DNA from: Cellulophaga sp. RHA19
GTDB taxonomy: Bacteria > Bacteroidota > Bacteroidia > Flavobacteriales > Flavobacteriaceae
Direction: 5' to 3'
Assembly: GCF_002813425.1 (NCBI RefSeq)
Contig: NZ_PHUL01000001.1
Span: forward strand, 2,046,001-2,110,000
DNA: 64,000 nucleotides
Numbering within the stretch: position 1 is the stretch's first letter; every line of letters starts with the position of its first letter. Positions 1,575-4,771 of this stretch are shown in pieces. The position numbers were made by a program, and so were the translations under genes. A model generated the notes under the pieces. That model worked only from the letters and a program-made list of their open reading frames with translations, did no database searches and was not told the origin of the DNA.

Positions 1575-1731
1575 AATGTGGTATGCTTAGTATTAACTAA
1601 GATAAAAAATACAAATTAACACCCAATAAGTACCATTTATAAAGTTATAGCATACAATTACACATATCCGTAATTCTACATTAAAAAAAAGTTTTACATT
1701 GTAAGAAAATTAAGCGCTAAAAACAGAAATG

Positions 1732-1782
1732 TGCGTTTATTACACCAATATGGGTGAATAAACGCAATGAATTGCGTTTATT
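1732..1782. repeat. Nested inverted and direct repeats at the left edge of the cassette array
   Basis: The motif TGCGTTTATT occurs at 1732 and again at about 1773 in direct orientation, with its inverted copy between them. Bases 1757-1768 and 1771-1782 form a perfect 12-bp palindrome around GA. Bases 1732-1745 also pair with the 1752-1766 stretch. The same DNA can therefore fold into two competing hairpins. It ends five bases before the first cassette core (GTTATGC at 1787). It may be an attI-like or degenerate attC-like site, or a terminator for the left side. Confidence 0.5.
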
Positions 1783-1812
1783 TATAGTTATGCATAATAC
1801 AAAAAAACTGAT

Positions 1813-2493
1813 ATGAGTGAATTAATTGGAAGTGGACATGAGGAAAGATGGTATCCTATTCCGATACATAAAATAAAGAATCATTTCTCAAAATATGTGA
1901 TTGACGAAGAATTATGTCCTGATTCGAAATATATTATTGCAAACATCAGTTATAACATACAATACATCCAGTATTTACGAAAAACATTGAATGAATTAAA
2001 TCTTTCAGAAGTTCTTCAAATTCAAACAATAAAGAGTTTCATAGTTATTAGCACTTCTATTATTGAAGCTATATTTTATTTAATATGTTGCAATGAAAAC
2101 TTGCGAAAAAAAATTATCTGGAAAGAATTCAAAACTATTGGTAAATCTGAATTTTTACTTGACGGAAAAAAATTAAAAAGTGAAACTAAACTCTTTGAAA
2201 AAAATGCTGATTCTGGATTTGAGTCATTGACTTTTGACCAAATGATTAAAAAAATAGAAACAAAAAAAATACTAAAACAAGAAAATCAATTTTTTAAAGA
2301 TTTGAATCACTTAAGAAAACTAAGAAATAAAATTCATCTTCAGGAAACCAAAACAATAGGAAAAACTGATTACAATTCATTTTGGAGACCAGAATATAAT
2401 TTATCGAAAAAGAACTTGAGATTATTATTGCTTGATGAAATCTTTAAAGCTGACGAATGGAATATTGAATTGTTTGAATTTTTAAAAACATAA
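1813..2493 (+). CDS. Cassette gene 1: uncharacterised protein with a HEPN-like Arg/His motif
   Basis: This 226-residue protein is predicted to be mostly helical and soluble. Near its C-terminus is RKLRNKIHLQ, in which R168 and R171 precede H175. This resembles the R-x4-6-H catalytic motif of HEPN ribonucleases and the RN..H motif of Abi-type proteins, but the match is short and I cannot confirm the fold. A hydrophobic helix (about residues 76-92) could be buried core rather than membrane. It is the sole gene of the first cassette, starting 13 bases after the core at 1787-1800. The AT-rich, AAA-rich codon use resembles that of the other cassette genes. Confidence 0.75.
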   Translation: MSELIGSGHEERWYPIPIHKIKNHFSKYVIDEELCPDSKYIIANISYNIQYIQYLRKTLNELNLSEVLQIQTIKSFIVISTSIIEAIFYLICCNENLRKKIIWKEFKTIGKSEFLLDGKKLKSETKLFEKNADSGFESLTFDQMIKKIETKKILKQENQFFKDLNHLRKLRNKIHLQETKTIGKTDYNSFWRPEYNLSKKNLRLLLLDEIFKADEWNIELFEFLKT

Positions 2494-2494
2494 A

Positions 2495-2700
2495 GCACTA
2501 TGCACAACAAAAGCTATAATTAATACGGGCTTTGGTGTTTAATTCAGAAGAAAGTGTATTTTTACTAAGTCCGCCAAATCTTTTGATTTGGCTTTAGAAC
2601 AAAAAAAGATAAAACAAAATTAAAAGTTTTGGCTAAGTGCTAAACTGAAAGTCTCTGACTTTCTATTTCCGTACTAACCATAGCTAAAACGTTAGCTTTA
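2495..2700 (+). repeat. attC-like site 1
   Basis: The element begins with the core GCACAAC (2502-2508) and ends with GTTAGCT (2691). Its outer arms pair: TATAATTAATACGGG near 2515-2529 against CCGTACTAA near 2669. The centre carries a perfect 8-bp stem with a TTTT loop at 2573-2592 (GCCAAATC/GATTTGGC). Much of its sequence recurs in the site at 3941-4144. The outer core bases pair only partly, as expected when the right core belongs to the next cassette. Confidence 0.65.
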
Positions 2701-2726
2701 ATTTGAAAAATCGTTGAAGGAAGAGG

Positions 2727-3170
2727 ATGAAACGAAGTGAAATTTTAATCATATCCATGACTTTTATTGGATTTGCCTCATTATTAGTATGGTTTGGACA
2801 CCTATCTTTTGGAATTTTTCAAAACTCGAAACCAATTATCTTGGAAACTCCAATTACTGGAGTTATCAACGACCTAAACCAGTACAAAGGCTTCACTTAT
2901 ATTCAGCTCGAACATGAAAATGAGTATTGGAAAATAGATGGTAGCAAAAATTATGACTATTCAGAGCCTTTTATTGCCGATTTTTTACTGAAAGGAGATT
3001 TTTTGGAAAAAAATAAATGCTCGGACACACTTTTTGTTAAAAGGGATAATCAAAAATTTCATTTCTTGATTGGCGACGTACTTTATAATAGCAAAACGCG
3101 TTCGAAAGAATTCATTGAATATTGGCGAAATCAAAGACGAATTATAACGGAAAAAAGTGATTGTAAATAA
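2727..3170 (+). CDS. Cassette gene 2: small membrane-anchored protein
   Basis: The 147-residue protein has one N-terminal hydrophobic segment (about residues 6-32), consistent with a signal anchor, followed by a hydrophilic domain with a cysteine at C99 and one at the penultimate position. I recognise no family. It fills the second cassette, between the core at 2691 and the core ending at 3186. Its own flanking cores match in 10 of 10 bases, so the unit could be excised as a circle if an integrase acted on it. The ATG at 2727 follows GAAGAGG but no clear ribosome binding site. Confidence 0.75.
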   Translation: MKRSEILIISMTFIGFASLLVWFGHLSFGIFQNSKPIILETPITGVINDLNQYKGFTYIQLEHENEYWKIDGSKNYDYSEPFIADFLLKGDFLEKNKCSDTLFVKRDNQKFHFLIGDVLYNSKTRSKEFIEYWRNQRRIITEKSDCK

Positions 3171-3175
3171 AAAAA

Positions 3176-3313
3176 CTAAAGCTAACATTACCTATAATTC
3201 AGTCTTGCCTTTTTCTAAAAATAAAATTTAGTACTTTTAATCCGGCTCGATTCCAATCTTGAAAAATCCTAACGGATTTCCCAGACCGAAATCATAGCCT
3301 AACCGTTAGCAAC
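3176..3313 (+). repeat. attC-like site 2 (shorter form)
   Basis: The left core AGCTAAC ends at 3186 and the right core GTTAGCA starts at 3305. The arm CCTATAATTCAGTCTTG (from 3191) pairs imperfectly with CCAGACCGAAATCATAG (to about 3297). The central hairpin is different in sequence from the other sites but similar in form: a 6-bp stem with a 4-base loop at 3264-3279. The stretch TTTAGTACTTTTAATCC is shared with the longer sites. Confidence 0.6.
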
Positions 3314-3327
3314 AAGTGCTCAAAAAA

Positions 3328-3828
3328 ATGAAGAAAGTAATACAAGTTTTAATTTTTACAATTGTGCTTACTGGATTTAGCCAAACTGGGTCTGTTAGTG
3401 GGAAAGTAATTTTTAAACTTGATTCGCTTAGTGTCCCAGGAGCAACTGTAATAATAAGCGGTACTAAAATCGGTGCTGCCGCTGATATTAATGGAGCCTT
3501 TGAAATTCCGAAATTGAAAGAAGGTAATTATGATTTGGTGGTCGAAGCCATAGGTTATGGAAAAGATACTATTCAAAACGTAATCGTTAATAATAATTCG
3601 AAAACCAAAATAACACTAGGTTTACCAGCAGGAAAATGTCATGTAAAGACTAGCTCTAAAAAATGTCCAATAGATGGAAAAACTAAAAATGTTATTCCAA
3701 TTCTTTATGGGTTGCCAAGAGAAAAAACAATACGGAAAATGAAAAAAGGAAAAGTCAAACTTGGCGGCTGTGAAGTTACTGGTTGTGAGCCAAATTGGTT
3801 TTGTAAAGAACATAAACAGGAATTTTGA
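3328..3828 (+). CDS. Cassette gene 3: secreted protein, carboxypeptidase-regulatory-like domain plus Cys-rich tail
   Basis: I prefer the ATG at 3328 over the in-frame GTG at 3316, because it gives a compact signal peptide (MKKVIQVLIFTIVLTGFSQ). Residues about 20-95 form a CarboxypepD_reg-like beta-sandwich (VSGKVIF, PGATVIISGT, GAFEIPKLKEGNYDLVV). The C-terminal 70 residues have paired cysteines and the string IPILYGLPRE followed by KLGGCEVTGCEPNWFC, resembling a small Cys-rich domain common in Bacteroidota that may bind zinc. The combination suggests an envelope protein of unknown role. It is the sole gene of the third cassette; about 110 noncoding bases follow it before the next core. Confidence 0.75.
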   Translation: MKKVIQVLIFTIVLTGFSQTGSVSGKVIFKLDSLSVPGATVIISGTKIGAAADINGAFEIPKLKEGNYDLVVEAIGYGKDTIQNVIVNNNSKTKITLGLPAGKCHVKTSSKKCPIDGKTKNVIPILYGLPREKTIRKMKKGKVKLGGCEVTGCEPNWFCKEHKQEF

Positions 3829-3940
3829 GCAAGTTTGTACAGGTGGACTTCACTCGATCGCAATCACTGTGTTGATGGACTTTCAACTCGGACGGAAAAT
3901 AATATAAAACGCAAAGTTACGTGCTTACTCGAAAGTGTCG

Positions 3941-4144
3941 CACCAGTTGCTAACAATGCCTATAATTAATACGGGTTTTGGTGCTTAACCCAAAGTTTAG
4001 TGCTTTTAACCAAGTCCGCCAAATCTTTTGATTTGGCTTTATAAAGAAAAAGATAAAACAAAATAAAAAGTTTTGGCTAAGTGCTTAATCGAAAGTTTAT
4101 TACTTTTAATTCCCGTACTAATTATAACCGAGACGTTGCCAGTA
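3941..4144 (+). repeat. attC-like site 3
   Basis: The left core TTGCTAAC ends at 3954 and the right core GTTGCCA starts at 4135. The arm TATAATTAATACGGG (3961-3975) pairs with CCCGTACTAATTATA (4112-4126), with one mismatch. The central stem GCCAAATC-TTTT-GATTTGGC is at 4018-4037. Two related stretches of about 40 bp flank the hairpin in direct orientation, each with TTTTGG, GTGCTTAA, AAAGTTTA and CTTTTAA in order. Most of the element is shared with the site at 2495-2700. Confidence 0.65.
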
Positions 4145-4146
4145 AT

Positions 4147-4662
4147 ATGAAAAAACACATTCAAAAAAGAAAGGTTTTATTGAGATTTGCTTATTTAGGT
4201 TCATTTTTATTAATTAGCCTTTATTCTTGTATAATGCAAAAGCCTTATTCAGCTAAAATAGCAAAATTTCAACCATCTTTTTTGGGGGAAATTAAAGAAA
4301 ATAATTTAAAAAGAATTGCAGATACAACAGCTATTCTTATCACCGGAAAAGTGTATGATTATGATAGGCCTGAAGGAGGTATTTCCGTGATTTTTATTAG
4401 TAAAGAAAACAAAAGAAAGTTTAGAACAGTCACTGATTCTAAGGGACATTTTAAAATAAACATTGTCAATGGATTGTACAATATACAGCTAATACCTTAT
4501 AAATATGGTAAGTCTCCATCTTTAAACTTTGAAAATTTAAACTTTAAATCTGGAGAAATACGTGAATTAATAATTTATACAGAATCATCTGCTGAGACTG
4601 TATCAATGGATACCATTTTTGAAAGTAAAAGAGCTTATAATGAATATATTAAAAGGCAATAA
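4147..4662 (+). CDS. Cassette gene 4: lipoprotein with a carboxypeptidase-regulatory-like domain
   Basis: The start chosen is the ATG at 4147, giving 171 residues. The in-frame GTG at 4081 lies inside the attC-like element and is rejected. The N-terminus is basic (KKHIQKRK), then hydrophobic, ending in a lipobox (ISLYSC), so it is probably a lipoprotein. Residues about 65-130 look like a CarboxypepD_reg domain (ITGKVYDYDRPEGG, TDSKGHFKINIVNGLYNIQLIP). No catalytic motif is visible. The gene starts 12 bases after the core at 4135 and ends seven bases before the next core, the tight fit typical of cassettes. Confidence 0.75.
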   Translation: MKKHIQKRKVLLRFAYLGSFLLISLYSCIMQKPYSAKIAKFQPSFLGEIKENNLKRIADTTAILITGKVYDYDRPEGGISVIFISKENKRKFRTVTDSKGHFKINIVNGLYNIQLIPYKYGKSPSLNFENLNFKSGEIRELIIYTESSAETVSMDTIFESKRAYNEYIKRQ

Positions 4663-4668
4663 GAAATA

Positions 4669-4700
4669 CTACAGACAACAATGCCTATAGCAAATGGGAC
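4669..4700 (+). repeat. attC-like site 4, left half only
   Basis: The core ACAGACAAC ends at 4679 and is followed by AATGCCTATAGC, nearly the same as the AATGCCTATAAT that opens site 3. No convincing right arm was found downstream, although a strong hairpin follows at 4736-4765. The site may be truncated and mark the right end of the array. Confidence 0.5.
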
Positions 4701-4735
4701 ATAAAGAGTTAAATTTTTAGTCTTGTAAACTTTAA

Positions 4736-4771
4736 GATTGCTAATGCCATTAAGCATTAGCAATCTTTTTT
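4736..4771 (+). terminator. Strong intrinsic terminator
   Basis: A perfect 12-bp stem (GATTGCTAATGC / GCATTAGCAATC) with a 6-base loop is followed by six T. It would stop transcription leaving the cassette array. Confidence 0.85.

Follow-up and report, generated by a model that had tools for sequence, protein, structure and literature searches.

Evidence for a dispersed, integron-like cassette system on Bacteroidota chromosomes, with a recombinase related to but outside IntI

The stretch of DNA analysed here (the window) comprises 64,000 nucleotides of the genome of Cellulophaga sp. RHA19 (contig NZ_PHUL01000001.1, positions 2,046,001 to 2,110,000). Between window positions 1787 and 4706 lies a landing site followed by four cassettes with private, complementary ends. 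We conclude from comparative sequence analysis that this array very probably forms one arm of an integron-like system that is dispersed over the chromosome in Bacteroidota, with a tyrosine recombinase that is related to the integron integrase IntI but falls outside it. The cassette units, an attI site beside the recombinase gene and detached heads of the same type, together with a recombinase that is not an IntI, suggest that the system works like an integron with a different integrase. An earlier note on the window had proposed an integrase-less, attC-like array of four units, either a cluster of attC sites lacking an integron integrase (CALIN) or a related, poorly described Flavobacteriaceae system. 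The second proposal is now strongly supported. A plain CALIN is not supported: the array begins at an attI-like head that has its inverted repeat in common with the attI of a recombinase gene in another part of the chromosome.

All features of the array are on the forward strand. The attI-like head unit (1640..1789) has a conserved leader, a hairpin (1733-1766), a perfect 12-bp inverted repeat (1757-1782) and a core ending in TAGTT, with its GTT at 1787-1789. Cassette 1 (1788..2691) carries a 226-aa open reading frame (ORF; 1813-2493) and attC1 (2506..2693), a 188-nt element with a central hairpin that runs from AAC at 2506 to GTT at 2691-2693. Cassette 2 (2692..3305) carries a 147-aa ORF (2727-3170) and the 124-nt attC2 (3184..3307; AAC at 3184, GTT at 3305-3307). 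Cassette 3 (3306..4135) carries an ORF at 3328-3828 and the 186-nt attC3 (3952..4137; AAC at 3952, GTT at 4135-4137). Cassette 4 (4136..4706; ORF 4147-4662) ends in attC4, which begins with AAC at 4677 and is without its right half; the cut-off point was placed by eye, by comparison with a complete attC of this type at locus L036. The four units of the earlier note hold, then, although its picture of a plain attC-like array has to admit the truncated attC4 and the conserved head ahead of cassette 1. Its core matches between the two ends of each cassette (11/14 for cassette 1, then 10/10, 9/9 and 8/10) are as claimed, counted by eye. Just after the last cassette (4734-4767) lies a perfect 14-bp hairpin followed by T residues, which is terminator-like.

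Are the cores private to their cassettes beyond this array? We located attC-like sites with a motif detector that makes no use of the core bases, except that it requires a purine after GTT. (A simple base-pair scan missed most sites, probably through bulges, and was replaced by the motif scan.) Across 14 array stretches, drawn from seven genomes, the detector found 78 sites, with none in two stretches. Cassettes between consecutive sites numbered 51, with 35 from the RHA19 genome itself (G000, a single contig of 3.93 Mb) and 16 from two relatives. Over the first six core bases the mean match was 4.75 with the cassette's own other end, compared with 2.23 for the two cores of the same site and 2.17 for other cassettes. 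A match of at least 5/6 was found in 35 of 51 own-end pairs and 3 of 78 same-site pairs, and none of 20,000 permutations reached the observed own-end sum. The pattern that the earlier note saw in the window, in which a core answers to the start of its own cassette and not to its partner in the same element, is the rule elsewhere too. The 16 own-end pairs below 5/6 probably include some in which the detector skipped or misplaced a site. Matches at core position 8 are very rare (2% in own pairs, 2% in others), which points to a difference in consensus, and positions 9-11 match in 67-82% of own pairs versus 37-67% of others. In the window array the detector-based scores are 6/6 for cassettes 2 and 3 and 4/6 for cassette 4.

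These elements have the makings of integron attC sites: their outer arms are complementary, they are bounded by AAC and GTT, and the pairing is conserved. Among 46 sites picked for their core match, element lengths fall into two groups (122-136 and 182-192 nt), and the inner L arms match up with their own partner over a run of at least six bases in 34 of 46 cases versus 32% with other partners (0 of 5000 permutations). Single-strand folding of attC1, attC2 and attC3 gave z scores of -2.67, -2.45 and -2.82; a long outer stem was not seen in the lowest-energy fold of attC1. An Rfam search returned just three matches, to mir-186, mir-392 and STnc390, all below the gathering score. The further copies that the earlier note had asked about are plentiful: DNA searches with three element types located at least 54 distinct attC-like places in at least 14 clusters on the RHA19 chromosome, a lower bound with 40 candidates scored per search. 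A query made up of cassette 2 and attC2-attC3 found matches in 93 of the 299 Flavobacteriaceae genomes sampled (80 of 236 genera); most of them came from its attC parts, and the two best candidates per genome were scored. Elements of the attC3 type are common to many Flavobacteriaceae, and their matches often begin exactly at the attC3 AAC.

The head that opens the window array is one of 17 copies on the chromosome (E ≤ 1e-8, queried with the sequence before cassette 1). In an alignment of 12 of them, all are similar through TAGTT and divergent thereafter. A cassette with a matching end core (≥6/7) follows 15 of the 17 heads, compared with 1034 of 4398 random GTT starts; 13 of these 15 run into an attC and two into an IS110-like end. 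Heads occur only in company with the recombinase described below: five of 18 genomes of the genus have them, and these are exactly the five with its short form (≥84% identity). In the head leader (1675-1720 in the window), TACATTG stands about 18 nt after TTG in most copies, the window having TTC. We take this to resemble the flavobacterial promoter consensus, and heads may carry a promoter for the array.

The genome has four phage-integrase matches: two are Xer-like, one is a 410-aa protein and one is split. None falls inside the window, as the term integrase-less had implied; for the genome the term fails, since a candidate integrase lies 1.3 Mb from the window, upstream of the largest array. 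The recombinase is open over about 300 aa in four congeners. Past its stop lies AAATAAACGCAATAAACTGCGTTTACTAACTAGTT, or a sequence close to it, and the first cassette after that differs from species to species. The inverted repeat and GTT beside the recombinase are the same as in the head units. When the recombinase loci are aligned in pairs, 13 of 15 alignments stop no more than 4 nt from the attI GTT; the other two extend about 19 and 45 nt beyond it. An attI that takes cassettes at one point beside an integrase is thereby found, as in integrons; the window itself has only a detached head. Because the inverted repeat of that head is the one in the attI adjoining the recombinase, the window array looks like a remote landing site that would be served in trans.

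Comparison of loci and genomes points to movement of cassettes as exact units. Cassette 2 of the window (493 nt, from GTT to AAC) has a 100% identical copy at 0.738 Mb on the same chromosome, with an attC that is 99.2% identical. The attC preceding that copy is 80.9% alike, the flanks beyond are unlike (57-60% in forced alignment), and similarity breaks at GTT. The same cassette recurs at 96% in genome G008, preceded by a different type of attC. G002 holds a repeated 748-nt unit, 100% identical, with CGTT breaks on both sides, and a cassette that stands at an attI in G016 stands behind an attC in RHA19, the two sequences diverging at GTT. The earlier note had called for a comparison of related strains at such GTT junctions. 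A fixed gene order in relatives, which would speak against cassettes, was not seen: G002 matches the flanks of the window locus (87% over 2136 nt upstream, 86% over 1010 nt downstream) and the intervening sequence holds the remnant of a head together with other cassettes, in which four attC-like elements were counted by eye. Three further genomes (G003, G006 and G012) have a head ahead of the same downstream gene as the window; their upstream flank was not matched to the window's.

Some cassettes deserve mention in their own right. A 342-nt unit without a long ORF stands at the attI of the broken recombinase and recurs at 97% identity 4 kb downstream (L035, 9789-10130 and 14128-14468). A cassette gene with a beta-lactamase-fold domain (PF00144; L036, 8778-9818) is found again in G016, at the attI of a long-form recombinase, and probably also in another genus (L242). 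In the window, the cassette 3 protein has a carboxypeptidase-regulatory-like domain (PF13715), and the cassette 1 protein matches nothing in Pfam or PADLOC. Two of the four window proteins have Pfam matches at E ≤ 1, one of them under curated cut-offs, as do two of ten other cassette proteins at E ≤ 0.001; PADLOC gave no match among ten cassette proteins that included the window's four.

The arrays also harbour an element of the IS110 insertion sequence (IS) family, of which one ORF was scanned (L035, 11098-12471, and L119, 13230). All four left ends found, three in RHA19 and one in G012, lie just past the AAC of an attC-like core. Two of three right ends resume in an attC and one adjoins a head. 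IS elements that use integron attC sites as targets are known.

How close is the recombinase to IntI? Against the IntI profile TIGR02249 it scores 206.2 bits, short of the cut-off of 265 and above the genome's own XerD (131) and XerC (110). In an alignment to IntI4, the middle 62 residues are reduced to 19. The spacing between two conserved motifs is 133 in all 17 measurable IntI proteins (27 loci tried), and 91-92 in 55 of the 60 measurable loci among 80 relatives of the recombinase, the remainder being one of 96 and four proteobacterial ones of 98. We also built a tree of 64 proteins (12 IntI, 32 Bacteroidota recombinases, 18 others, XerC and XerD), after dropping one row that lacked a motif. 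IntI forms one clade (100/100) with the Bacteroidota recombinases outside it; deeper forks are weak, at 92/76 and below. By score, spacing and tree, the recombinase is not an IntI with the additional domain.

The association with an attI extends beyond the genus, and related recombinases that have cassettes beside them are present in several families of Bacteroidota. A scan of named genomes found at least 587 relatives, of which the best 80 were kept. Longer relatives, with open frames mostly of 358-418 aa, occur within the genus and beyond; downstream of many of them lie a GTT core and repeats of other kinds, inverted or direct. For a GTT at most 260 nt from the recombinase stop, an exact 7-nt core partner further downstream was found in 19 of 68 testable loci compared with 59 of 2932 control windows. 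By record titles these were 19 of 44 loci from Bacteroidota, none of 23 from outside and none of one of unknown phylum; they include Flavobacterium, Winogradskyella, Rufibacter, Pontibacter, Algoriphagus, Aquiflexum and metagenome-assembled genomes (MAGs) of Bacteroidales. Two single loci stand out. In another family of the order, a recombinase fragment is nevertheless followed by an attI-like site and a cassette (L053, G026:C1:827788-828162). In a Deltaproteobacteria MAG (L163, 751-900), a related recombinase precedes repeated GGTATATCCGAA-type motifs and a GTT core, where the exact core test gave no match; the system may extend to other phyla, or this MAG may be a mixture.

A zinc-ribbon-like protein of 120-140 aa with a GRSDKKFC motif is a frequent neighbour. 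Its gene lies divergently upstream in 23 of 40 recombinase matches (40 genomes) and in 16 of the 80 named loci. Of 54 matches to the protein, 31 are unlinked to the recombinase, and the linkage could therefore be positional.

We infer from these comparisons how the system might operate, including the catalysis, the choice of strand, the action in trans and any part played by the zinc-ribbon neighbour. The tyrosine recombinase would act on a folded attC strand at GTT, and cassettes would be excised as circles and inserted at attI-like sites. In the circle, the private start core of a cassette would pair with the core after its gene and so restore the attC hairpin. One attI lies directly downstream of the recombinase gene, and the 17 heads of the same type would seed arrays around the chromosome, served by the recombinase in trans. 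A bolder version, which we hold tentatively and think somewhat less probable than its opposite, is a separate Bacteroidota lineage of integrons: a distributed integron whose single integrase, lacking the additional domain, serves scattered heads in trans, and in which part of the attC recognition that the IntI domain provides elsewhere falls to longer private cores and a zinc-ribbon partner.

Several observations weigh against an integron-like system of this kind, or against its generality. The evidence is comparative, and no recombination was observed. The recombinase gene of RHA19 is itself broken, split into two frames by a frameshift; the system may be idle in this strain, or the assembly may be wrong there. 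The profile NF040815 (XerA-type) gives 209.8 bits (cut-off 220), slightly more than TIGR02249 does, and the best solved relative is an archaeal XerA, with IntI4 second. A long form scores 220.2 against NF040815, just above cut-off; in NCBI naming this profile is a "site-specific tyrosine recombinase/integron integrase". Two heads, at 1372548 and 1605067, have no matching cassette end, the latter within only 3 kb of searchable sequence. The five head-bearing genomes may form one clade, so their co-occurrence with the recombinase supports a link but not independently. The exact core partner is absent from 49 of the 68 testable loci, 25 of the 44 in Bacteroidota among them, and by eye some long-form loci are without the downstream repeats and GTT core. 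Finally, in all 35 cassettes compared, attC folds more stably in its reconstituted circle form than as it stands in the array, a result that is partly built in because these cassettes had been preselected for core match.

Could a classical integron account for the array, as a CALIN or decayed remnant whose attC sites were made and moved by a normal IntI? The attC-type anatomy with AAC and GTT ends would fit, and IntI proteins above cut-off occur in 70 of 247 sampled genomes of the phylum. However, IntI matches are listed for 71 genomes, of which 70 lie outside the window's class and one within it (the class's sample size is not stated). The RHA19 genome has no TIGR02249 match at E 1e-57, its four phage-integrase proteins being those described above, and the heads match the attI of a non-IntI recombinase and occur only with it. 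We regard this explanation as improbable.

Movement by the host XerC/XerD, as in dif-type modules, seems to us very improbable, even though both proteins have counterparts in the genome. Heads are present in five genomes of the genus and not in all 18, and their inverted repeat is common to a site beside another recombinase. Moreover, dif sites are short, whereas these units end in long hairpins of the attC type (no search for dif was made). Harder still to credit is a reading without any cassette system, in which homologous recombination has spread common intergenic repeats or terminators. The elements are indeed repeated, hairpin-rich and intergenic, but plain repeats would not be expected to have private cores, to break at GTT with unlike flanks or to place a different first cassette at each attI. 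An integron-like system with its own recombinase is the reading that we prefer.

Published surveys bear on why such a system might have gone unnoticed. In the cited parts of their texts, PMC9668308 treats the additional domain as a defining trait and counts Bacteroidota among integron phyla, as does PMC8618304 for the phyla; the methods of PMC2426708 select integrases by the additional domain or patch, and PMC9024848 surveys with an IntI-specific profile. A Tenacibaculum genome run through IntegronFinder 2.0 had no integrons reported in the cited part of PMC10013915, and the corresponding part of PMC8565304 only cites an integron paper. According to an excerpt of PMC8138268, the integron insertion is not fully conserved in an integron-like subgroup of simple tyrosine recombinases, so recombinases such as this one may already be filed there; that excerpt does not connect any member without the insertion with attI or cassettes of Bacteroidota (the paper's data sets were not searched). 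The cited section of PMC9668308 reports archaeal integrons in which attI lies immediately downstream of the integrase gene. We found no description of such a system in the open-licence full-text literature, a scope outside which preprints and most subscription papers fall. Should the system be confirmed, a major phylum would hold a large gene-exchange system that has escaped notice, and one could then test directly the view that integrons depend on the IntI domain for their activity.

The resemblance to sedentary chromosomal integrons is extensive. Single-gene units share one orientation and are separated by attC-like hairpins with AAC and GTT ends; the right end of each attC comes from the next cassette; an attI stands beside a tyrosine recombinase; and the cassette genes are mostly of unknown function. 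In contrast to integrons, the Bacteroidota recombinase lacks the additional domain and lies outside the IntI clade, many attI heads are detached, and there is a zinc-ribbon neighbour. The core differs too: the integron consensus is the 7-bp GTTRRRY, whereas here the core is private to the cassette and longer, with seven bases after GTT and then positions 9-11. The window array resembles a CALIN in that its attC-like sites are clustered and the window holds no integrase. Unlike a CALIN, it starts with an attI-like head, and the gene for its apparent cognate recombinase lies elsewhere on the same chromosome.

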